A DNA stretch of 38,836 bases from a virus. Under the pieces are notes generated by a model that saw nothing but the letters and a program-made list of their open reading frames with translations, was not told the DNA's origin and searched no databases. Positions 265 to 38,342 of this stretch are shown here, in pieces; position 1 is the stretch's first letter; each line of letters begins with the position of its first letter. The stretch spans positions 1 to 38,836 of the IMG/VR virus record IMGVR_UViG_3300004369_000668, one strand, 5' to 3'. A program made the position numbers and the translations under genes.

Positions 265-271
265 TATTTAA
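265..271 (-). promoter_or_regulatory. Late-promoter-like TTAAATA, 5 nt before start codon
   Basis: On the minus strand TTAAATA, then GTTGT, then ATG at 259. It is a one-base variant of ATAAATA with the 5-nt spacing of the leaderless class. Confidence 0.5.
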
Positions 272-1837: not shown

Positions 1838-1844
1838 TATTTAT
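1838..1844 (-). promoter_or_regulatory. Late promoter ATAAATA with ~46-nt leader for the subtilase
   Basis: The minus strand reads GATAAATACATATATAAATT, then an AGGAG site about 46 nt downstream. The first 20 bases closely resemble the element before the virion protein at 32270, linking the protease to the virion genes. Confidence 0.6.
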
Positions 1845-3978: not shown

Positions 3979-3985
3979 ATAAGTA
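3979..3985 (+). promoter_or_regulatory. Late-like element ATAAGTA, 5 nt before the ferredoxin ATG
   Basis: GATAAGTACAGTT then ATG. ATAAGTA with 5-nt spacing also precedes the gene at 23928. The ferredoxin may thus have both an early and a leaderless late transcript. Confidence 0.4.
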
Positions 3986-3990
3986 CAGTT

Positions 3991-4326
3991 ATGAGTTTCG
4001 TAGTAGGTAGTCCCTGTGTTGGGTGTAAAGACACAAAATGTGTAGAGGTTTGCCCTGTAGATTGTTTCTATGAGGGTCCAGATATGCTGGTTATAAATCC
4101 AGATGAGTGTATAGACTGTGCATTATGTGAGCCAGAATGTCCTGTTGAAGCAATTTGGAGTGATGACGAACTACCTACAGATCAGATTCCTTTTATAGAA
4201 ATAAATGCAAAGATGTCTGAAATATGGCCTAACATAGCAGAAACAAAAGAACCAATGGCACACGAAAGTCCATATAGTACAGAAGAGGCAATAGCAATAG
4301 GTGAGAAACATGTCGAAGAAAACTAA
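3991..4326 (+). CDS. fdxA: 7Fe-8S ferredoxin (FdxA-like)
   Basis: 111 aa. Cysteines at 9, 12, 17, 21, 25 ([16 protein letters not shown]) and 40, 43, 46, 50 ([12 protein letters not shown]) match the bacterial seven-iron ferredoxin pattern: one [3Fe-4S] and one [4Fe-4S] cluster. The C-terminal 55 residues are the acidic, helical tail usual in FdxA. It is a soluble one-electron carrier; the partner enzyme is unknown, though radical-SAM and oxygenase genes in the window could use reduced ferredoxin (inference). It has its own consensus promoter within the preceding frame. The stop region overlaps the next small gene by 17 nt. Confidence 0.92.
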
Positions 4327-5290: not shown

Positions 5291-5297
5291 ATAAATA
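5291..5297 (+). promoter_or_regulatory. Late promoter ATAAATA with short AGGAG leader for the lipase
   Basis: GATAAATACTACTATAATT is followed by AGGAG (5315-5319) and ATG 5326. Its leader is almost identical to that at 25757 (GATAAGTACTACTATAATA). Confidence 0.6.
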
Positions 5298-6142: not shown

Positions 6143-6397
6143 ATGAATTGGTTAATAATATTAGCACTAAAAAGCATACTATCAAGTATAATTGGTAGTA
6201 GTTTTTATCAGTGGTTTAAGAATACTAAAATGGGTGTTTGGTTCCAAGTAAAAATGGATAACACAATGGAGTGGGTAGCAAACAGATATGATTTAGAAAT
6301 TGCTAGTCGAGAAGAGAAATGGTTAGCTCAATACCCATTACTTGCAAAAAGAATTGTAGATCTAGAACAGGAAGTAAAAAAGTTAAAAAAAAGATAA
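6143..6397 (+). CDS. 84-aa membrane-anchored coiled-coil protein
   Basis: An N-terminal hydrophobic stretch (MNWLIILALKSILSSIIG) anchors the protein; residues 25-50 are soluble, and the end (LLAKRIVDLEQEVKKLKKR) is a short coiled coil. An AAGGA ribosome site precedes it, 10 nt behind the lipase stop. The late element of the next gene overlaps its stop codon. Function unknown; a spanin- or holin-like helper of lysis is one possibility without direct support. Confidence 0.6.
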   Translation: MNWLIILALKSILSSIIGSSFYQWFKNTKMGVWFQVKMDNTMEWVANRYDLEIASREEKWLAQYPLLAKRIVDLEQEVKKLKKR

Positions 6398-6400
6398 ATA
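6394..6400 (+). promoter_or_regulatory. Late promoter ATAAATA with ~42-nt leader
   Basis: GATAAATACTTG overlaps the stop of the previous gene; GGAG (6433-6436) precedes ATG 6443. Confidence 0.6.
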
Positions 6401-7120: not shown

Positions 7121-7128
7121 TATAAATA
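7121..7128 (+). promoter_or_regulatory. Consensus late promoter TATAAATA
   Basis: Perfect TATAAATA, 25 nt before the ATG at 7154. Confidence 0.65.
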
Positions 7129-7520: not shown

Positions 7521-7597
7521 GCCACCTTAGCTCAGTTGGCCAGAGCAGGGGTTTTGTAAACCTCAGGTCGTCAGTTCGAATCTGACAGGTGGCTCCA
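7521..7597 (+). tRNA. tRNA-Thr (anticodon TGT), CCA encoded
   Basis: 77 nt. Acceptor GCCACCT/AGGTGGC, D stem GCTC/GAGC, anticodon stem GGGGT/ACCTC with loop TTTGTAA (anticodon TGT), T arm GTCAG-TTCGAAT-CTGAC, and a genomic CCA. All stems close. It reads ACA codons, common in AT-rich genes. The next gene starts 11 nt later, so the tRNA is cut out of a transcript shared with the small repeat protein and tRNA-Ala. Confidence 0.95.
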
Positions 7598-7852: not shown

Positions 7853-7928
7853 GGGGCCATAGCTCAGCCGAGAGAGCGCCTGGTTTGCAACCAGGAGGTC
7901 GGGAGTTTGATCCTCCCTGGCTCCACCA
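7853..7928 (+). tRNA. tRNA-Ala (anticodon TGC), CCA encoded
   Basis: 76 nt. Acceptor GGGGCCA/TGGCTCC with one G-T pair, D stem GCTC/GAGC, anticodon stem CCTGG/CCAGG with loop TTTGCAA (anticodon TGC), T stem GGGAG/CTCCC with loop TTTGATC, and a genomic CCA. TTT replaces the usual TTC at the start of the T loop. It starts 7 nt after the repeat-protein stop and ends 14 nt before the next ATG. Confidence 0.93.
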
Positions 7929-15112: not shown

Positions 15113-15443
15113 TAACTTTATTCAATCTACATTAAAAATTTTAGGGTGCTCTGCATTGTTTATAGGTATGACAGTAGCATTAGGTGAAAGTGCAGACATG
15201 GAAATATTTGCTTATTTGTCTATGATATTAGGTACTACTTTTATTATAATCCATAGTTTTAGGCAAAATGATCATATGTATCTTTTAGTATCTAGTGCAG
15301 GGTTTTTATTAATTGGTAATGCATTTTTAGGTACAGAAACAGCTCTAATGTTGATGCCTGAATTGGCAATGGCAGAAGACCAAGGTTGGTTTGCAAAGTA
15401 TGGCAAAGTTATTGTTGAAGTTCTTAAAACAGTTATAAATTAA
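15084..15443 (+). CDS. 119-aa membrane protein, three predicted helices
   Basis: MTSKQKKQINNF is a basic N-terminus. Hydrophobic helices follow at about 18-35 (LGCSALFIGMTVAL), 41-57 (EIFAYLSMILGTTFIII) and 65-88 (MYLLVSSAGFLLIGNAF), then a C-terminal amphipathic segment (WFAKYGKVIVEVLKTVIN). AAGGAG precedes the ATG. The late element of the next gene overlaps its stop. Function unknown. Confidence 0.6.
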   Translation: MTSKQKKQINNFIQSTLKILGCSALFIGMTVALGESADMEIFAYLSMILGTTFIIIHSFRQNDHMYLLVSSAGFLLIGNAFLGTETALMLMPELAMAEDQGWFAKYGKVIVEVLKTVIN

Positions 15444-15449
15444 TAAATA
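15443..15449 (+). promoter_or_regulatory. Late element ATAAATA, 5 nt before a GTG start
   Basis: TAATAAATA, then TAAAC, then GTG 15455. Confidence 0.55.
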
Positions 15450-15454
15450 TAAAC

Positions 15455-15787
15455 GTGGGACAATACACAGACAAAATAAACAAAATAGCAAAAGATTTTG
15501 CTGAAATAGAATATTACGAAAAAATAAGTGCTCTTGAAGCCTATAACGGAAAGTTCATTAAACATTATAATCATCGTGGCAAAACAATAGAGTTTAGTAA
15601 GGATGGAGAACACGAAGGAATAGAAGGAAAGGCAGGAGATATTATAGATACTCCCCCACAAGATGAAGAGTATATAAAATTAAAGGCATTGTACAATACT
15701 GGAGATTCTTGGCAAGATCAAATTGCCAGATGGTGGAAAAAAATTACTAAAATCAAATACGACCCAAAATATAAATTTTTTAAATAA
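15455..15787 (+). CDS. 110-aa unknown protein (GTG start, leaderless class)
   Basis: A soluble charged protein starting MGQYTDKINKIAKDFAEIEYY; the middle has YNHRGKTIEFSKDGEH and the end is lysine/aromatic-rich (WWKKITKIKYDPKYKFF). No motif is recognised. The GTG is chosen because ATAAATA sits 5 nt before it, the same geometry as its ATG-started neighbours. The next gene begins 1 nt after the stop. Confidence 0.55.
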   Translation: MGQYTDKINKIAKDFAEIEYYEKISALEAYNGKFIKHYNHRGKTIEFSKDGEHEGIEGKAGDIIDTPPQDEEYIKLKALYNTGDSWQDQIARWWKKITKIKYDPKYKFFK

Positions 15788-15788
15788 T

Positions 15789-16040
15789 ATGGATTACAAC
15801 GACGAAAAATTTGCTTATCAGGTAGATATTCAAAAACTATCTTCAAAACACAATGTTGGAAGGCATGACTTGATTATAATTGCTACATTTATAGCCAGGG
15901 AGGAAATGCTTACTTCACATGAGGCATTAAAAAAATTGCTTTCTATAGATGATTTAGATGTTTATTATAATCAAATAAAAGAAAAACGTATTTCCAAAGA
16001 GTTTGATAGAAGTTTGAGGGGCTCGAGTGGCGTTTCGTAA
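15789..16040 (+). CDS. 83-aa unknown protein
   Basis: It starts MDYNDEKFAYQVDIQKLSSK; the body is helical with TFIAREEMLTSHEALKKLL. The ATG at 15789 lies 1 nt after the previous stop and is preferred over an in-frame ATG at 15723 inside that gene. No motif is recognised. It probably shares the transcript of the preceding gene. Confidence 0.5.
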   Translation: MDYNDEKFAYQVDIQKLSSKHNVGRHDLIIIATFIAREEMLTSHEALKKLLSIDDLDVYYNQIKEKRISKEFDRSLRGSSGVS

Positions 16041-16125
16041 ATAGGGTTTGGGTAAATAGACAAGTTTAGACATAGTCGTTCCCCATGTTAAATTCCCAAT
16101 GTGTGCCGCCCCTCAATTTCTAACA

Positions 16126-16133
16126 TATAAATA
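16126..16133 (+). promoter_or_regulatory. Perfect late promoter TATAAATA, 5 nt before ATG
   Basis: TATAAATA, then CTTAC, then ATG 16139. In T4 late promoters TATAAATA lies at about -13 to -6, which puts +1 on the A of this ATG. No ribosome site is present. Confidence 0.72.
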
Positions 16134-16138
16134 CTTAC

Positions 16139-17140
16139 ATGATTTATATAATCCAACCTGCTGGAACTTTTAGAAATATTCATACTAATCATTTTGCATC
16201 TGTATTAGAAAGTTTGTCGTATCAGGAAGAAATAAAATTTATGCCTCACACAGAATTGTTAGAAAAACACGTTTCTGAATATCCTGATAACAGCAAGTTT
16301 TTAATTAGGTTAGGTGCTTATACAATATCTGAAGTTTTAAATGTACTAAAAAAATTAGAAAACATTGGGCATATAGTATTTCCAAATTATCAATCAATTA
16401 GAAGATGTTTGTATAAAGATACATTTTATCAACTTTGTAGCGAAAATAATATACCTATTCCAAAAACAGTAACATTTACAAGAGAAAGTGAATATAAAAA
16501 ATGGTATTTTCCAGAGTTTGGTGAAAAATGTATTATTAAACCAAGTAAAGGTTCGCTAGGACGTGGAATAAAACTTGTTAAAAGTTTATTTGTAGCAGAT
16601 GAATTGGAAAACTTATTTGCAACTAACGAATTTTATGAAGATTGTGATGCAATAGTTCAGAGTTATATCACTAAATTTGATGATAAATCTCAACACATAA
16701 GAATATTTTGTTTTTTAGGTGAGCCCACAGCATCTATAACAATTACAAATGGAGATAGTTTAATAGCATCAGATCAAAGAATGTATGTTGGAAAGCAAAA
16801 AGTATTATATGACGAAAATGGTGACATAAAAGAGACATACATAGAAGATAAAAATTTAAATAATTTAGTGTCTAATGTACATGCTGGTGGTGTTGCCGCT
16901 CCTTATTTTCCAGATGAAAAATTAAAACAATTATGTAGAGATGTTTGCAAACTTACAGGAATAGAATTTACGGCGATAGATGTAATTGAGGATAAACAAG
17001 GTAACTATTATGTTTTAGAAAGTAATATTGCTCCACATTTATACAAAGCATTTGTATTGCATCATGGAAGAGTAAATCATCCTGAAATGATATATAATTA
17101 TTTACTTGACATGTCTAATAAAGATAGTATAATGTTATGA
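16139..17140 (+). CDS. ATP-grasp ligase, RimK-like
   Basis: 333 aa. The central domain carries EKCIIKPSKGSLGRGIKL (residues 129-146), the ATP-binding lysine and glycine-rich loop of ATP-grasp enzymes; HIRIFCFLGEPTASI and EFTAIDVIED follow, and YYVLESNIAPHLYKAF supplies the Mg ligands (Glu and Asn). These enzymes make an amide or peptide bond via an acyl phosphate. The N-terminal 100 residues are a pre-ATP-grasp fold. It overlaps the zinc peptidase gene by 4 nt, and a small basic protein follows, suggesting a peptide-tagging or maturation cassette (inference). Confidence 0.8.
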   Translation: MIYIIQPAGTFRNIHTNHFASVLESLSYQEEIKFMPHTELLEKHVSEYPDNSKFLIRLGAYTISEVLNVLKKLENIGHIVFPNYQSIRRCLYKDTFYQLCSENNIPIPKTVTFTRESEYKKWYFPEFGEKCIIKPSKGSLGRGIKLVKSLFVADELENLFATNEFYEDCDAIVQSYITKFDDKSQHIRIFCFLGEPTASITITNGDSLIASDQRMYVGKQKVLYDENGDIKETYIEDKNLNNLVSNVHAGGVAAPYFPDEKLKQLCRDVCKLTGIEFTAIDVIEDKQGNYYVLESNIAPHLYKAFVLHHGRVNHPEMIYNYLLDMSNKDSIML

Positions 17141-17547
17141 TGAGCATTGTAATAAATGGCAGAATAAAACAAAAGAAAGAAGTTTTAGATTTTGCATACA
17201 ATATAATGTTTTATCTTATGCCCAGACTTAAAAGGAATGTGTATATAGATATAAATGTTGTGACAAAATGCGATGGAGAAAATTCTGCATTATGTTATGG
17301 CGATAGAGAAAGTGTGGAAATAGAACTAGCAAGAGAGTCTTTTGACCATAAATTTTTATTAGAAGAAATGATGGTAAATTTAGCTCACGAATTAGTTCAT
17401 GCCAAACAATTTATCAGAGGCGATTTACATCCTAGATTATACAAATGGAAAAAACAGGATTGTAAAAATATGTCATATGGTAAAAGACCTTGGGAAAAAG
17501 AAGCATACTTATTAGAAAACGAACTTTATAATAAATTTTGGAATTAA
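17137..17547 (+). CDS. Zinc metallopeptidase-like protein (HExxH, SprT-like)
   Basis: 136 aa. NLAHELVHAKQF gives His84-Glu85-His88; the third ligand could lie in RPWEKEAYLLENEL, where a Glu follows as in SprT/gluzincin folds. It is compact, without signal peptide or membrane segments. It overlaps the ATP-grasp gene by 4 nt, so the two are translationally coupled. It could cleave a peptide that the ligase builds, or act as a DNA-protein-crosslink protease like SprT. The zincin fold is likely; substrate unknown. Confidence 0.72.
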   Translation: MMSIVINGRIKQKKEVLDFAYNIMFYLMPRLKRNVYIDINVVTKCDGENSALCYGDRESVEIELARESFDHKFLLEEMMVNLAHELVHAKQFIRGDLHPRLYKWKKQDCKNMSYGKRPWEKEAYLLENELYNKFWN

Positions 17548-17709
17548 ATGGCAAAAATATATAATAAAACAACAACAGCAATAACACCCACAAGAAAGGC
17601 TAGTTCTATTGGACAAGGCGGCAGAGGCAGAAGTGTCAAAATTGCCTTATCAACTATGAACAAACACAAAAAAAGGTGTCACAAAAAATACAGAGGACAG
17701 GGCAGATAA
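17548..17709 (+). CDS. 53-aa basic conserved T4-like phage protein
   Basis: The ATG follows the metallopeptidase stop without a gap. The product begins MAKIYNKTTTAITPTRKASS and carries IGQGGRGRSVKIALS, then NKHKKRCHKKYRGQGR at the end. The KKYRGQGR ending is one I recognise from small proteins of T4-like marine phages. It is very basic and probably binds nucleic acid. In this operon it could be a substrate of the ligase/peptidase pair, which is speculation. Confidence 0.7.
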   Translation: MAKIYNKTTTAITPTRKASSIGQGGRGRSVKIALSTMNKHKKRCHKKYRGQGR

Positions 17710-17796
17710 GTTTTGATTGGGCACATTTTTTGTTCTCCTAATACAACTATATTACCCAATCATGCTCCGCAGTTTAAACTGCGGAGCAACTTTTTA
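17710..17796 (+). ncRNA. Candidate small RNA with anti-ribosome-site loop and intrinsic terminator
   Basis: TGATTGGG (17714-17721) pairs perfectly with CCCAATCA (17755-17762) around a 33-nt loop, and a 24-nt palindrome plus T-run terminator follows at once. The loop holds TTGTTCTCCTAAT (17730-17742), which is complementary over 13 nt to the ribosome-binding region of the gene starting at 25757. This is the build of a regulatory RNA: a seed in a loop, then a terminator. It may be processed from the end of the preceding operon, as no separate promoter is clear. Confidence 0.42.
17764..17796 (+). terminator. Very strong rho-independent terminator
   Basis: GCTCCGCAGTTT and its reverse complement form a 24-nt perfect palindrome, then AACTTTTT. 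It lies directly before the late element of the deformylase. Confidence 0.9.
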
Positions 17797-17797
17797 A

Positions 17798-17804
17798 ATA
17801 AATA
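17798..17804 (+). promoter_or_regulatory. Late element ATAAATA, 5 nt before the deformylase ATG
   Basis: AAATAAATA, then CAAGT, then ATG 17810; no ribosome site. Confidence 0.65.
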
Positions 17805-17809
17805 CAAGT

Positions 17810-18400
17810 ATGAGTACTTATAATCCTTATAACAACTATATGACAACTGATGTAATCACTACATCACTCACAGAAGAATGGGTATGCGAATTAGTAGAGC
17901 CTAAGCATCAAGCACTTCATACCAGAGCAAATATAGATCCTTTTGGTACCGATATAGATTGGCGAGAAAAGGAAAAAGAAATGTTCCAACTTATGCACGA
18001 TAAATTTGGTATAGGTTTAGCCGCACCACAGATAGGTTATAGTTATAATATGTTTGTTATGAATCATGAGCATTTGGGAGACATAGGTGTTTTTAGACCT
18101 GAGATATTAGAATACAGTGAAGAAACATGCAGATATGAAGAAGGCTGTTTAAGTTTCCCTATGTTGTATTTAGATGTAACCAGACCAGAAAAAGTCAAAG
18201 TCAGATATTATAAATCAGATGGTGAAACACAGGTAGAAACCTGGATGGACGGCAGAGATGCCAGATGTTTTCAGCACGAATTTGATCATTTATATGGTGA
18301 TTTATTCATAGACAAAGTAAGTGATTTAAAATTACAAAGAGCATTTAAAAAGAGAGAGAAGTTTTTTAAAAAATTAGAAAGACAAATGAAAAATGCTTGA
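17810..18400 (+). CDS. def: Peptide deformylase
   Basis: 196 aa. GIGLAAPQIG (67-76), EEGCLSFP with Cys113, and QHEFDHLYG with His156-Glu157-His160 are the three PDF motifs; the metal is bound by the Cys and both His. It removes the N-formyl group from new proteins. Phage-encoded deformylases are known in marine T4-like phages. A 40-residue N-terminal extension precedes the core. The transcript is predicted to be leaderless, and the end overlaps the GH6 gene by 8 nt. Confidence 0.93.
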   Translation: MSTYNPYNNYMTTDVITTSLTEEWVCELVEPKHQALHTRANIDPFGTDIDWREKEKEMFQLMHDKFGIGLAAPQIGYSYNMFVMNHEHLGDIGVFRPEILEYSEETCRYEEGCLSFPMLYLDVTRPEKVKVRYYKSDGETQVETWMDGRDARCFQHEFDHLYGDLFIDKVSDLKLQRAFKKREKFFKKLERQMKNA

Positions 18401-19615: not shown

Positions 19616-20797
19616 TTAGTATTTATCTAAATTTATAACTAAATTTCTTAATGGTAACATTCTACTTAACATTTTTCTATTGTGTTTTATAAAACCTATC
19701 ACATCAGGTTTATTGAGAATGTTCATTATTTCGCTAACACTCATATTTGATAATTTTTCAATTAACTTCATATCATTTTTGAAACCCTGAAAATTTGTGT
19801 CTATTGAATAAACTGGATCTTCAAACAAATGCCTAAATGTTTTATATCCTTGATCATTTAATCTTTCATTTATATAAGGCATACCTAAATGAATAAAAGG
19901 AATTCCATACCAGAAATTCTTATAAGTTTTTTCAGATAAAAAATAATTTTTTCTGTGATGAAAAGTTTCTGAATAAAACGAATTAGGATCATCTCTTGTA
20001 GATGAAGTTTCTACCACAATAGATAAAGCACAATCATCTAAAATTTCCTGTGGTGTTGCCCACTCATCTGTTTGATATATATCATCATAAAAAATGGGTT
20101 GTTTGTATTTGTTTATATCCACAGTTATGTTTAGAGATTCCAATGCTTTAATATCTTCCTTGCCCCATTCTGAATCGTTTCCTTCATTGTGCCAAGAATA
20201 TACTGATTGTTTATCGTATCCATTATCTATAAAATACGCATGAACTAATTTTCTTAAAAATCTGGAATTTTTTTGTAATAAACCAAAATGTTTAGTACAG
20301 CGTCTGGCGACAATTTCATTTAGTTCAGCATTTTTGCCTTGCTGATTCAGTACAAAACTTGTAGAAAATCCATTATAGGAAATAATATCAATATTTGCAT
20401 ATTTTTTATTTAAACTTAAAAATCTTGTTACAAACATATTATTAGGATTAAATGATGTAACTATTTTTATTTTTTCTGAATTTACTCCACTGGATAAAAT
20501 TTTATCTAAACATGCCATAAAAGGAGGATTTACATAATCTTCAATTATGGTGTCTAATATTAAAACATTATCTTTGTTTGATTTAACTACATCTAAAACT
20601 TCCTGAATAAGATCGTTATCTACGTGTTCGTCTATTTGGTTTCCTGCATAAAAGAATACCATGCAGGGTTTAGAATTATCATTAGTATATTCGCAATTTA
20701 TATCGAGTTTATCGTTACAGGCTTTTATATGACCAAAACAGGTTTTGTGCTGAATAATATCGGGAGTAGCATAAAAATGATCATATATAGGCAACAT
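19616..20797 (-). CDS. Putative glycosyltransferase-like protein
   Basis: 393 aa. The C-terminal half has ALSIVVETSS followed by YFLSEKTYKNFWYGIPFIHLG and LNDQGYKTF. That E-K-T ... G-I-P-F order is typical of phage and bacterial proteins related to fucosyltransferase-like GT-B enzymes, where the Glu/Lys bind the nucleotide sugar. The N-terminal half has no clear motif. The start is 5 nt behind TTAAATA. It stops 2 nt before the start codon of the 126-aa gene downstream. Assignment is by motif only. Confidence 0.5.
   Translation of the reverse strand: MLPIYDHFYATPDIIQHKTCFGHIKACNDKLDINCEYTNDNSKPCMVFFYAGNQIDEHVDNDLIQEVLDVVKSNKDNVLILDTIIEDYVNPPFMACLDKILSSGVNSEKIKIVTSFNPNNMFVTRFLSLNKKYANIDIISYNGFSTSFVLNQQGKNAELNEIVARRCTKHFGLLQKNSRFLRKLVHAYFIDNGYDKQSVYSWHNEGNDSEWGKEDIKALESLNITVDINKYKQPIFYDDIYQTDEWATPQEILDDCALSIVVETSSTRDDPNSFYSETFHHRKNYFLSEKTYKNFWYGIPFIHLGMPYINERLNDQGYKTFRHLFEDPVYSIDTNFQGFKNDMKLIEKLSNMSVSEIMNILNKPDVIGFIKHNRKMLSRMLPLRNLVINLDKY
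19620..19626 (-). promoter_or_regulatory. Late element ATAAATA, 5 nt before ATG 19614
   Basis: Minus strand: GATAAATA, then CTAAT, then ATG. It overlaps the end of the upstream gene. Confidence 0.6.
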
Positions 20798-20802
20798 GCT
20801 AC

Positions 20803-20809
20803 TATTTAA
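20803..20809 (-). promoter_or_regulatory. Late-like TTAAATA, 5 nt before ATG 20797
   Basis: Minus strand: TTAAATAGTAGC then ATG, nearly identical to TTAAATAGTTGT before ATG 259. Confidence 0.5.
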
Positions 20810-22711: not shown

Positions 22712-22718
22712 TATTTAT
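22712..22718 (-). promoter_or_regulatory. Late element ATAAATA, 6 nt before ATG 22705
   Basis: Minus strand: GATAAATA, then GTACAT, then ATG. Confidence 0.6.
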
Positions 22719-23933: not shown

Positions 23934-23940
23934 TACTTAT
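23934..23940 (-). promoter_or_regulatory. Late-like ATAAGTA, 5 nt before ATG 23928
   Basis: Minus strand: CATAAGTA, then ACAGT, then ATG. Same variant as before the ferredoxin. Confidence 0.45.
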
Positions 23941-25534: not shown

Positions 25535-25541
25535 TATTTAT
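25535..25541 (-). promoter_or_regulatory. Late element ATAAATA, 6 nt before ATG 25528
   Basis: Minus strand: GATAAATA, then GTTTGT, then ATG. Confidence 0.6.
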
Positions 25542-25782: not shown

Positions 25783-25789
25783 TACTTAT
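25783..25789 (-). promoter_or_regulatory. Late-like ATAAGTA with AGGAG leader
   Basis: Minus strand GATAAGTACTACTATAATA, then AGGAG before ATG 25757. Almost the same as the lipase leader. Confidence 0.5.
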
Positions 25790-28454: not shown

Positions 28455-28461
28455 TATTTAT
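28455..28461 (-). promoter_or_regulatory. Late element ATAAATA, 5 nt before ATG 28449
   Basis: Minus strand: CGATAAATA, then TTGGC, then ATG. It decides the start of the oxygenase gene. Confidence 0.62.
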
Positions 28462-29048: not shown

Positions 29049-29055
29049 TATTTAT
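29049..29055 (-). promoter_or_regulatory. Late element ATAAATA, 6 nt before ATG 29042
   Basis: Minus strand: CATAAATA, then GTCCAT, then ATG. Confidence 0.6.
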
Positions 29056-29258: not shown

Positions 29259-30476
29259 TTAACTCTTGCGAGTAGTATTACTTACGTTTTTAGCCTTACC
29301 CTTTCTGTTTTTATTGGGATCTTCTCTACGTTTCTTTCTTACTGCGGCCGCTATTGCTTTCTTACCACCTTTGGCTCTTAAACTAGCCGCTCTGCTTTTG
29401 CTTAGACACTTAGGTTTACCTTCGCCTTTCTTAGCATCTCCACATTTGCCAATACGTTCGCCTTTGGTGTTGTATCTATCCCAACCACCGCCTCCGGCTC
29501 CGCCTTTTTTACCTTTACCGAACCAGGCTCTTAAATCTTCTTCAACTTTTACTAACTTGTCTTCTTTGACTAACGTTAATGGATTATAAATTTGTCTTGC
29601 TCTCTTATATAGTTTTGCAAAATCTACGTGTTCTACTGCTGGGTATTCAGGTAATCCAGGTCTTTGTTTTGCTCTCCATTCTGGATTAAGCCAGTTCATT
29701 ATTAATGGTCTGACATCATCTTCTGGTGCTAAGTCATCTAGCATGTCATGGAAACTATCATCACCGATGATGTTATTTAACACATCTGCGGCATCATGTT
29801 CTTTAGTCTTGTTCCATTCTCTATGTTTCTTTTTAGACATTCCAGCAGAGCAATCAATGTTATCAGGTATTCCATTTGGATACTTTTGAACTAGGATTTT
29901 TAGTTTTTTTATTTTCTTTTGAATGTCATCGTTTGTAAGATGTTCAGGTCTATTATCATTATTTGGATTTAACATTTCTGTCCATCGTGCTAAGTCATTT
30001 TTGATGTCATTGTACCCTGACCCACATCCAGTTCCACCGCACATGTCACAACTTAAATCAGGATCATCATCTCTTCCACCTCGTAGTAGTGGTTCTTTTA
30101 ATAACTCTAATGCTTTCTCTGCATCAAAGGCCCAAACATTTTCATGGACTTTCTTTTGATAGCCTTTCCAACATTTTTCAACTATTGTTTCTACAATGCT
30201 TGGGTCTATTTCTTGTGCTGTGAATTGTTGCATTAGTTCAACAATGTCATCATCGTGATCCAATATTTTATAATCAGCATCAACTATTAGTGCTACATTA
30301 TCATCATAGCCGTGATTCTCACCACTGAGTACATGCATTCCATTACTTAATTCTATATGGTCTTCTTGATTGACCCATTGATGAATAACTGACTCTACTT
30401 CTTCATGTGGAAGTTTACCTAACTTAGGTTCTGTATTAAGAGTAGTTATGTCTTCTATGATTTCTCTGATAAGCAT
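29259..30476 (-). CDS. Head-block protein with acidic body and basic Cys-containing C-terminus
   Basis: 405 aa. MLIREIIED resembles a capsid-targeting N-terminus with an IxE-type cut site. CDMCGGTGCG (C143, C146, C151) is a zinc-knuckle-like segment. From about residue 310 the chain turns strongly basic: WFGKGKKGGAGGGGWDRYN, GERIGKCGDAKKGEGKPKC and an Arg/Lys/Ala-rich tail, a module I recognise from T4-like phage proteins (DUF6321-like by memory). No enzyme motif. It starts 2 nt after the upstream head protein stop. Probably packaged, possibly DNA-contacting (inference). Confidence 0.66.
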   Translation of the reverse strand: MLIREIIEDITTLNTEPKLGKLPHEEVESVIHQWVNQEDHIELSNGMHVLSGENHGYDDNVALIVDADYKILDHDDDIVELMQQFTAQEIDPSIVETIVEKCWKGYQKKVHENVWAFDAEKALELLKEPLLRGGRDDDPDLSCDMCGGTGCGSGYNDIKNDLARWTEMLNPNNDNRPEHLTNDDIQKKIKKLKILVQKYPNGIPDNIDCSAGMSKKKHREWNKTKEHDAADVLNNIIGDDSFHDMLDDLAPEDDVRPLIMNWLNPEWRAKQRPGLPEYPAVEHVDFAKLYKRARQIYNPLTLVKEDKLVKVEEDLRAWFGKGKKGGAGGGGWDRYNTKGERIGKCGDAKKGEGKPKCLSKSRAASLRAKGGKKAIAAAVRKKRREDPNKNRKGKAKNVSNTTRKS

Positions 30477-31116: not shown

Positions 31117-31653
31117 TTAAGATAGTGTTCCACTGTACCAAATTCTGACTTTGGCCGTTCCTGCACTTGCACCACCTTGGGTTACATAAACATAAACTTC
31201 TGTATCTGCACTATAAGTATGGTCATTATCAAATGCAATTTGACCACCTGCTGGATCAAATCCTGCAAAAAGCCTATCAACGTCACCTGAATCACCCACA
31301 GTTATTTCTGTGGTACTATTATAGTCTGTCCAGTTGCCAACACCTTTTTCCACAACTACGGATTGTATTGTTGAGTTGGATGCAAATGTACCCACAGATG
31401 TGTTTCCACTATTGTAATTTACGGTTGTTTCAACAAATTTGAGTTTTTGACTACCAGTGGCATCCATTTGACCTTTAGTTACAGCATGACTACTTGCTGT
31501 ACCGTTTGCTATTGCAATTTCTTCTAAAGCACCGTCTTTGTCTTTGAGACTTATTATAGCACTATCACTAGCATCTATAACTGCACCTTGTTTACCAAGT
31601 TCTATAGTTGTACTAGCACCTGCTATACCGTAGTTCTTTACTGAATCTACCAT
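31117..31653 (-). CDS. Virion structural protein, paralogue of the next gene
   Basis: 178 aa. It starts MVDSVKNYGIAGASTTIELG, then AVTKGQMDATGSQKL and a beta-rich, Ser/Thr/Gly-rich C-terminal half (TYSADTEVYVYVTQ, GTAKVRIWY). The NYGIAG..LGKQG start and AVTK(A/G)Q(L/M)D linker are shared with 31665-32270, so the pair arose by tandem duplication. Such proteins occur as surface or fibre-related virion components of marine phages. AGGAG precedes the ATG. Confidence 0.7.
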   Translation of the reverse strand: MVDSVKNYGIAGASTTIELGKQGAVIDASDSAIISLKDKDGALEEIAIANGTASSHAVTKGQMDATGSQKLKFVETTVNYNSGNTSVGTFASNSTIQSVVVEKGVGNWTDYNSTTEITVGDSGDVDRLFAGFDPAGGQIAFDNDHTYSADTEVYVYVTQGGASAGTAKVRIWYSGTLS

Positions 31654-31664
31654 ATTAACTCCTA

Positions 31665-32270
31665 TTAACTTATGTTACCTAAGTCGCTGTTACTGTTTTG
31701 TGAATTATTTATTGAACCGTAATCTGTTACATTTACACTATCGGCGGCAACTAATACACTAATAGTAGCAGTACCGGCACTTGCGGCACCGTTGGTTACT
31801 TCTGCTGTAAGTACAGTTTCTGAACCATATTCATACTGATATTGTGAATGGTATTGACCTGCTTTTGTAACATCTACGTCTGAACTTCTAATAAATCTTG
31901 AGCCGTTTGAGGAATCTCCTACTTCAACATAATCACCTGCACCACCAGAACTCCAAGGGGTAGGTATATCAACTGTTACTGAAATAACTCTACTACCTGC
32001 GGCAATAGTAGCCACATTACTTGAACCTGATGTATTATAATCAACATCTAAAGTAATGTGCTGTACTAAGTCTGAGGCAATGTCGTCTAACTGAGCCTTT
32101 GTTACAGCACCTGTGGCCGCTGTAGCATTCGCTATTGCAATTTTCTGTAACTCGTCACCTGATGTGTAGAACCCAATAGCATCTGAATTACCACTGATAT
32201 ATGAACCTTGTTTACCAAGTTCTAAACTAGTACTAACACCTGCTAAGTTGTATTTTTTAACTGTAGCCAT
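31665..32270 (-). CDS. Virion structural protein, first of a tandem pair
   Basis: 201 aa. It starts MATVKKYNLAGVSTSLELGK and has GAVTKAQLDDIASDL, then an all-beta C-terminal domain (ISVTVDIPTPWSSG, TVLTAEVTNGAASAGT) and a Ser/Asn tail. Similarity to the downstream gene covers the first 80 residues and the final AG-TA-V strand. GGAG precedes the ATG, and a late element lies 41 nt ahead. It starts the late minus-strand block. A fibre or capsid-decoration role is inferred. Confidence 0.72.
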   Translation of the reverse strand: MATVKKYNLAGVSTSLELGKQGSYISGNSDAIGFYTSGDELQKIAIANATAATGAVTKAQLDDIASDLVQHITLDVDYNTSGSSNVATIAAGSRVISVTVDIPTPWSSGGAGDYVEVGDSSNGSRFIRSSDVDVTKAGQYHSQYQYEYGSETVLTAEVTNGAASAGTATISVLVAADSVNVTDYGSINNSQNSNSDLGNIS

Positions 32271-32311: not shown

Positions 32312-32318
32312 TATTTAT
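32312..32318 (-). promoter_or_regulatory. Late promoter ATAAATA with ~41-nt leader for virion proteins
   Basis: Minus strand: GATAAATACATTTGTATAAT, then GGAG before ATG 32270. It overlaps the UvsE promoter region on the other strand. Confidence 0.62.
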
Positions 32319-34024: not shown

Positions 34025-34031
34025 GTAAATA
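34025..34031 (+). promoter_or_regulatory. Late-like GTAAATA, 5 nt before ATG 34037
   Basis: GGTAAATA, then GGTGC, then ATG; one mismatch to ATAAATA. Confidence 0.42.
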
Positions 34032-37790: not shown

Positions 37791-38339
37791 ATGAAAAGAG
37801 TCATTATAAGTTTATTCTTTTCTGTTAGTTTATTTGCAGAAAAGATAGATGCAAACGTGCTACAAGTTGATATGTCCTTAGATGACGATGTAACTTGTTT
37901 AGCATTAAATATGTATCATGAAGCCAGAAGTGAAAGTACTGCTGGTATGTGGGCCGTTAGTGACGTTGTAATCAATAGAGTGAAAAGCTCAGTATTCCCA
38001 AATAGTATTTGTGAAGTAATCAAACAAGGACCAATTAGAGAAAGTTGGAAAACTTTTAACAAACCATTTCTTACCGAAGATCAAAGAATTTATTATCCAG
38101 TAAGGGGTCAATGTCAATTCAGTTGGTATTGTGACGGTAGATCGGATGTACCCACAGAGCTATTCAGTTGGCAAAGAGCATTAGAACTTGCTAGGCTAAT
38201 GTTAGAATATGATAAAGGTATAGGTATCACAGATGGTGCTGACCATTATCACGCAGACTACATAAATCCCAAATGGAACCAGAGCATGTTGCTCACAGCC
38301 AGGATAGACAACCACGTATTCTATAAAGATATCAGATAA
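37791..38339 (+). CDS. SleB-type cell wall hydrolase with signal peptide
   Basis: 182 aa. MKRVIISLFFSVSLFAEK is a signal peptide or signal-anchor. NMYHEARSES, GQCQFSWYCDGR and DHYHADYINPKW are the Hydrolase_2/SleB motifs, with Glu in the YHEAR segment as the likely catalytic acid of a lytic transglycosylase/amidase-type lysin. The signal suggests Sec export without a holin. Despite its lysin nature it has a consensus early-type promoter. Confidence 0.88.
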   Translation: MKRVIISLFFSVSLFAEKIDANVLQVDMSLDDDVTCLALNMYHEARSESTAGMWAVSDVVINRVKSSVFPNSICEVIKQGPIRESWKTFNKPFLTEDQRIYYPVRGQCQFSWYCDGRSDVPTELFSWQRALELARLMLEYDKGIGITDGADHYHADYINPKWNQSMLLTARIDNHVFYKDIR

Positions 38340-38342
38340 ATA
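38336..38342 (+). promoter_or_regulatory. Late element ATAAATA with AGGAG leader
   Basis: AGATAAATATAT overlaps the lysin stop; AGGAG lies 7 nt before ATG 38378. Confidence 0.5.

Follow-up and report, generated by a model that had tools for sequence, protein, structure and literature searches.

T4-type late-promoter boxes abut start codons in a group of marine phages and may give rise to leaderless late mRNAs

Background

SAR11 and other streamlined marine bacteria are infected by T4-like phages of ecological importance, whose late gene expression has been assumed to resemble that of T4. The T4 late promoter is an 8-bp box located about one helical turn before the transcription start, without a -35 element (PMC2988020), and the late-promoter box of T4 and cyanophages matches the box that we describe here in marine phages (PMC2988020, PMC2984593). 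Leaderless mRNAs, which begin at the start codon, are known from other systems; the lambda mRNA is given as the first such case (as cited in PMC3160421), and in bacteria a -10-like box about 10 to 12 nt before the start codon has been taken as a mark of leaderless genes (Zheng et al. 2011, PMC3160421). Leaderless mRNAs are spared by kasugamycin (PMC5230787). In addition, the bS21 protein encoded by the Pelagibacter phage HTVC008M enters Escherichia coli ribosomes (PMC6375957, PMC9723584).

The marine phage genes considered here resemble these systems only in part. As in lambda, phage mRNAs are predicted to begin at AUG, but the lambda case, as cited, concerns a single gene, whereas we count 89 leaderless gene families across the marine phage group. 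Like the TA-led leaderless genes of bacteria, the marine genes carry a -10-like box about 10 to 12 nt before the start codon, with a distance peak over background, no Shine-Dalgarno sequence, and a start codon that is almost always AUG. Unlike the TA-led genes, their box is a predicted phage late-sigma element that lacks a -35 and occurs alongside Shine-Dalgarno-led genes of the same promoter type. Although both leaderless mRNAs and T4 late promoters have been described before, the literature searched, which omits most subscription journals, yielded neither their fusion as a class in a T4-type program nor leaderless late mRNAs in T4-like phages.

Late-promoter boxes in the window

The window is a whole public virus record, a fragment of 38,836 nt. 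No near match to a 9.8-kb stretch of it was found among 50,697 phage records, and no T4 core genes, including those for gp55, gp33, and gp45, were seen in its 38,836 nt; its probable kinship with T4 rests on relatives such as contigs G004 and G015.

A first-pass annotation had listed 13 genes with a late-promoter box fused to the start codon and a second set of seven genes with a longer leader, and both sets held on recounting. At all 13 starts, [ATG]TAA[AG]TA ends exactly 5 nt (10 sites) or 6 nt (3 sites) before the start codon, with no Shine-Dalgarno sequence in between. In the second set, the motif lies 25 to 46 nt upstream, and GGAG, AGGAG, or CGGAG precedes the ATG in most cases.

Boxes 5 or 6 nt before the start codon:
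265..271, minus strand, TTAAATA, 5 nt before ATG 259 (the ORF runs past the window edge)
3979..3985, plus strand, ATAAGTA, 5 nt before ATG 3991 (FdxA-type ferredoxin)
15443..15449, plus strand, ATAAATA, 5 nt before GTG 15455
16127..16133, plus strand, ATAAATA, 5 nt before ATG 16139 (RimK-like ATP-grasp protein)
17798..17804, plus strand, ATAAATA, 5 nt before ATG 17810 (peptide deformylase)
19620..19626, minus strand, ATAAATA, 5 nt before ATG 19614
20803..20809, minus strand, TTAAATA, 5 nt before ATG 20797
22712..22718, minus strand, ATAAATA, 6 nt before ATG 22705 (nucleotidyltransferase-like)
23934..23940, minus strand, ATAAGTA, 5 nt before ATG 23928 (sulfotransferase-like)
25535..25541, minus strand, ATAAATA, 6 nt before ATG 25528
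28455..28461, minus strand, ATAAATA, 5 nt before ATG 28449 (2OG-Fe(II) oxygenase)
29049..29055, minus strand, ATAAATA, 6 nt before ATG 29042 (2OG-Fe(II) oxygenase-like)
34025..34031, plus strand, GTAAATA, 5 nt before ATG 34037 (NAD-dependent epimerase)

Candidate leadered late promoters:
1838..1844, minus strand, spacing 46 nt, AGGAG, ATG 1791 (protease-like protein)
5291..5297, plus strand, spacing 28 nt, AGGAG, ATG 5326 (lipase)
6394..6400, plus strand, spacing 42 nt, CGGAG, ATG 6443
7122..7128, plus strand, spacing 25 nt, ATG 7154
25783..25789, minus strand, ATAAGTA, spacing 25 nt, AGGAG, ATG 25757
32312..32318, minus strand, spacing 41 nt, CGGAG, ATG 32270
38336..38342, plus strand, spacing 35 nt, AGGAG, ATG 38378

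Homologues of the gene at 15455 also start with GTG at 5 nt in G001, and with ATG at 5 nt after CTAAATA in G009, G010, and G011. The box lies 5 to 6 nt before homologues of the 25528 ORF in five relatives (G001, G002, G004, G008, and G009).

Several other features of the window were recorded. The ferredoxin (3991-4326) finds its top cellular matches in marine Gammaproteobacteria (SAR86, 73%; Luminiphilus, 71%), which may point to a host or gene donor of that kind. Genes for tRNA-Thr(tgt) (7521-7597) and tRNA-Ala(tgc) (7853-7928) are neighbors, and the tandem proteins encoded at 31117-31653 and 31665-32270 have similar N termini and resemble paralogous decoration proteins.

Motif-to-start distances

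To describe spacing in the window, we counted distances of up to 60 nt from [ATG]TAA[AG]TA to the ATG of ORFs of at least 60 amino acids, with the GTG site tallied apart. Ten matches fell at 5 nt and three at 6 nt (one of these 13, at 30338 on the minus strand, is an internal false positive), compared with no more than four, and mostly zero to two, at other distances. Among 21 permutations of ATAAATA, the true motif occurred seven times at 5 to 6 nt and any other at most once.

As this record covers only part of a genome, relatives and complete isolates were used for the whole-genome distance scan. Homologues of the peptide deformylase and of ORF 20797 led to 75 IMG/VR loci, and contigs and complete isolates were scored gene by gene; the resulting marine set comprises 17 related genomes or contigs, including the Pelagibacter phages HTVC008M and Mosig and the Methylophilales phage (methylophage) Melnitz. 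The sharp peak at 5 to 6 nt that the first-pass annotation had named as its genome-wide check is present across these 17 relatives and not in the window alone. ATAA[AG]TA precedes ATG by 5 nt at 106 sites and by 6 nt at 18, whereas each distance from 7 to 15 nt has 0 to 5 sites, followed by a broad leadered hump at 16 to 50 nt. These counts are not independent, as several contigs are closely related, yet they represent 89 leaderless gene families. Permuted motifs reached at most 5 sites in the relatives versus 99 for the true motif, and substitutions in the motif core abolished the peak. GTG was found at 5 nt only twice and TTG never, against the 106 ATG codons.

The peak is specific to certain phages. 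A gene-level count in T4, KVP40, Cr30, Syn9, and S-PM2 gave zero ATG codons 4 to 9 nt after the motif and a similar leadered hump, and matches to a 15-base pattern were close to those of its reversed control, without clear enrichment, in P-SSM2, P-SSM4, P-RSM6, S-SSM7, S-BM3, phiM12, phiM9, DLP6, and pf16. We also drew an IMG/VR sample of any origin, fetched by one bait site and scored at non-bait sites only; among the matches listed, 36 such sites lay at 5 nt versus 1 to 11 (mean near 4.5) at other distances. Overall, about a third to half of the late-promoter boxes examined in the marine group abut a start codon, unlike those of T4, KVP40, and the cyanophages tested.

Predicted transcription start

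We propose that host RNA polymerase carrying a phage late sigma factor (gp55 type) would start on the A of AUG at box-fused genes, giving a leaderless mRNA that would be translated without a Shine-Dalgarno sequence, presumably by 70S ribosomes or a specialized 30S subunit recognizing the 5'-terminal AUG. An identical box 16 to 60 nt upstream would give an ordinary Shine-Dalgarno-led mRNA, and a single late program would use both translation modes, with the leaderless mode perhaps setting low output. We assign a probability of roughly 0.78 to the reading that T4-type late promoters produce leaderless mRNAs in these phages alongside late mRNAs of the ordinary Shine-Dalgarno kind.

Leadered promoters provide an estimate of the transcription start (+1) that is independent of the position of the ATG. 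At these promoters, a pyrimidine-purine step occurs at the sixth base after the box at a frequency of 0.47 in marine phages and 0.50 in T4 and cyanophages, compared with 0.14 to 0.36 elsewhere, and the preference for a purine at this base is shared with T4 late promoters. With +1 at the sixth base, a spacing of 5 nt would therefore put it on the A of ATG. In the box-fused class, the ATG is immediately preceded by T in 75%, C in 21%, A in 4%, and G in 1% of cases; a pyrimidine occupies this position in 96%, versus 46% at other genes. The earlier proposal that +1 falls on or within 1 nt of the start codon thus gains support from both the pyrimidine-purine step and the -1 pyrimidine, with its exact position estimated by analogy with T4 and from this statistical start-site signal. 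In the leaderless promoters of all relatives, the 5-nt spacer shows a preference for S-T-A-G-T that is absent after leadered boxes and that may sharpen start-site choice.

It is unlikely, given these base preferences, that the boxes are real promoters from which transcription starts 1 to 5 nt upstream of AUG, which would leave a very short leader and a Shine-Dalgarno-independent mRNA that is not strictly leaderless. Such slippage would fit the fairly common 6-nt spacing (18 sites), the spacing of 8 nt at Mosig gp25, and a related clade (L026, L029, L030, L032, L038, L043, and relatives) that has, about 3.4 kb downstream of the deformylase gene, one gene family whose box is kept at 4 nt rather than 5; these cases suggest that the choice of start site is somewhat flexible. 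However, the 5-nt spacing is about six times commoner than the 6-nt spacing, the -1 pyrimidine favors a start on the A of ATG, and T at -1 is retained in 76% of the 6-nt class, as expected if initiation shifts one base along with the ATG.

Conservation of the spacing and credibility of the start codons

Orthologues retain the box spacing while the flanking sequence diverges. For example, the nucleotidyltransferase gene (22705) has a spacing of 5 to 6 nt in 9 of 10 homologues at 33 to 63% identity with unrelated flanks, the exception being G001 (64% identity), and the deformylase gene stays in the class in most closer relatives despite N termini that differ by 16 to 26 residues. The gp2 genes of HTVC008M, Mosig, and Melnitz share the spacing at 39% identity, whereas those of T4, S-PM2, Cr30, and KVP40 lack it. 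By gene family, 89 are leaderless and 79 leadered, with 12 of 156 mixed; Melnitz gp3 and Mosig gp48 have switched mode relative to their orthologues.

The annotated starts of the box-fused genes are credible because three lines of evidence agree: the window proteins show nucleotidyltransferase, Rossmann, ferredoxin, and sulfotransferase-like motifs that start within a few residues of the N terminus, orthologue alignments begin at residue 1, and all 13 sites called in HTVC008M coincide with RefSeq-annotated starts. In HTVC008M, gp2 and gp4 (NC_020484, 18916-18943) are divergent, with 26 nt between their start codons and a late box for each; the gp4 start is ambiguous, and Met15 may be an alternative.

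Box-fused genes may also be carried on read-through mRNAs: of 169 boxes, 20 fall within an ORF that lies upstream on the same strand, and the same-strand stop codon upstream is a median of about 20 nt away. These figures would also suit a scheme in which upstream read-through mRNAs are the main template, translated by coupling or by non-Shine-Dalgarno initiation, and the fused promoter is minor or vestigial. We consider that scheme improbable, since it does not predict a spacing that is retained while flanks diverge, sites that follow divergent genes (e.g., HTVC008M gp2/gp4), or the absence of TTG and near absence of GTG starts. Mimicry of the motif by the stop codon of the upstream gene was ruled out, as the majority of sites neither fall within an upstream ORF nor coincide with its end.

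A probable single promoter type resembling the T4 late promoter

The box consensus in marine phages is gATAAATA, a single box close to TATAAATA in which the NTAAATA core is required and the first base is free but mostly A; the GATAAATA variant is common to leaderless and leadered promoters. A G precedes the box in 46 to 57% of leaderless and 50% of leadered marine promoters, in contrast to the T (56%) of T4 and cyanophages. We found no -35 element at the boxes, the best match scoring 3.16 versus 3.25 in shuffled sequence, which rules out a host sigma-70 promoter (-35 TTGACA at about 15 to 19 bp). The shared preceding G and the absence of a -35 make leaderless and leadered boxes look like one promoter type, and the two gene classes differ in their Shine-Dalgarno sequences, which are present in 4% of leaderless versus 73% of leadered genes. 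Like the late promoters of T4 (TATAAATA, gp55/gp33/gp45), the marine promoters have a single AT-rich box about one turn before the predicted +1, and gp55, gp33, and gp45 are encoded in HTVC008M, Mosig, and Melnitz, as is gp55 in G015.

A fixed distance to the start codon could mark TAAATA as a translational enhancer or non-Shine-Dalgarno ribosome site, but this is very improbable, as the identical box and flanking G occur 16 to 60 nt upstream of Shine-Dalgarno-led genes, the box agrees with the late promoter of T4 and cyanophages (PMC2988020, PMC2984593), and TTG and GTG starts are nearly excluded. Chance, A+T-rich composition (these genomes have 33 to 39% GC), and coding artifacts were ruled out by the permuted motifs, the reversed patterns, and the cyanophage and equally A+T-rich T4 (35% GC) controls, which lack the peak. 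The fusion of late promoters to start codons, as originally proposed, is supported by all of the sequence tests, which agree.

Distribution and co-occurrence with bS21

By gp23, isolates with the class are nearest each other (72 to 75% identity) and then nearest cyanophages (59 to 60%). The window group branches more deeply, with gp17, gp41, and uvsX of G004 and G015 at 24 to 32% identity and gp55 of G015 at 28%. The presence of the class in marine isolates and in this deeper group, together with its absence from the cyanophages tested, implies that it arose more than once or that cyanophages lost it. We ruled out that the class is shared by T4-like or alphaproteobacterial phages at large, as it is absent or unenriched in the control genomes tested. 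The suggestion of two translation modes within one late program is well supported by sequence for the marine group but does not extend to T4-like phages generally.

Genes for bS21 are present in each of the three complete isolates that have the class, in none of 14 that lack it, and in seven related contigs. G015 (270 kb, not shown to be complete) has the class, and S21 was not detected in it, which rules out bS21 as a strict requirement. The co-occurrence is a correlation confounded by kinship and is suggestive only, a lead. Phage bS21 has been considered as a late translation modifier (PMC6375957, PMC9723584), and bS21 is encoded by most of the phages that have the class; leaderless mRNA is not mentioned in those papers, and the link is correlative. 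We offer only as a doubtful possibility that phage bS21, together with the peptide deformylase and RimK-like genes, changes the platform of the 30S subunit such that Shine-Dalgarno-led capsid genes and leaderless low-copy genes would be differentially translated late in infection.

Gene content and implications

Leaderless genes encode the PAAR spike tip (a family leaderless in all eight contigs), gp2, gp3, gp25, gp48, tape measure, CsgF, oxygenases, deformylase, and nucleotidyltransferase, and leadered genes encode tail sheath, virion structural proteins, and protease-like and decoration-like proteins. The placement of low-copy virion parts and enzymes in the leaderless class, judged from the few genes that could be named, suggests dosage control, i.e., keeping output low.

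Overall, the T4 late promoter appears to have been reused in these phages as a combined transcription and translation start signal. The box-fused class offers a start-site rule that gene callers can use and suggests how low-copy virion parts may stay low. It also allows the puzzling presence of S21 genes in these phages to be tested directly in culture, with HTVC008M or Mosig on Pelagibacter HTCC1062.
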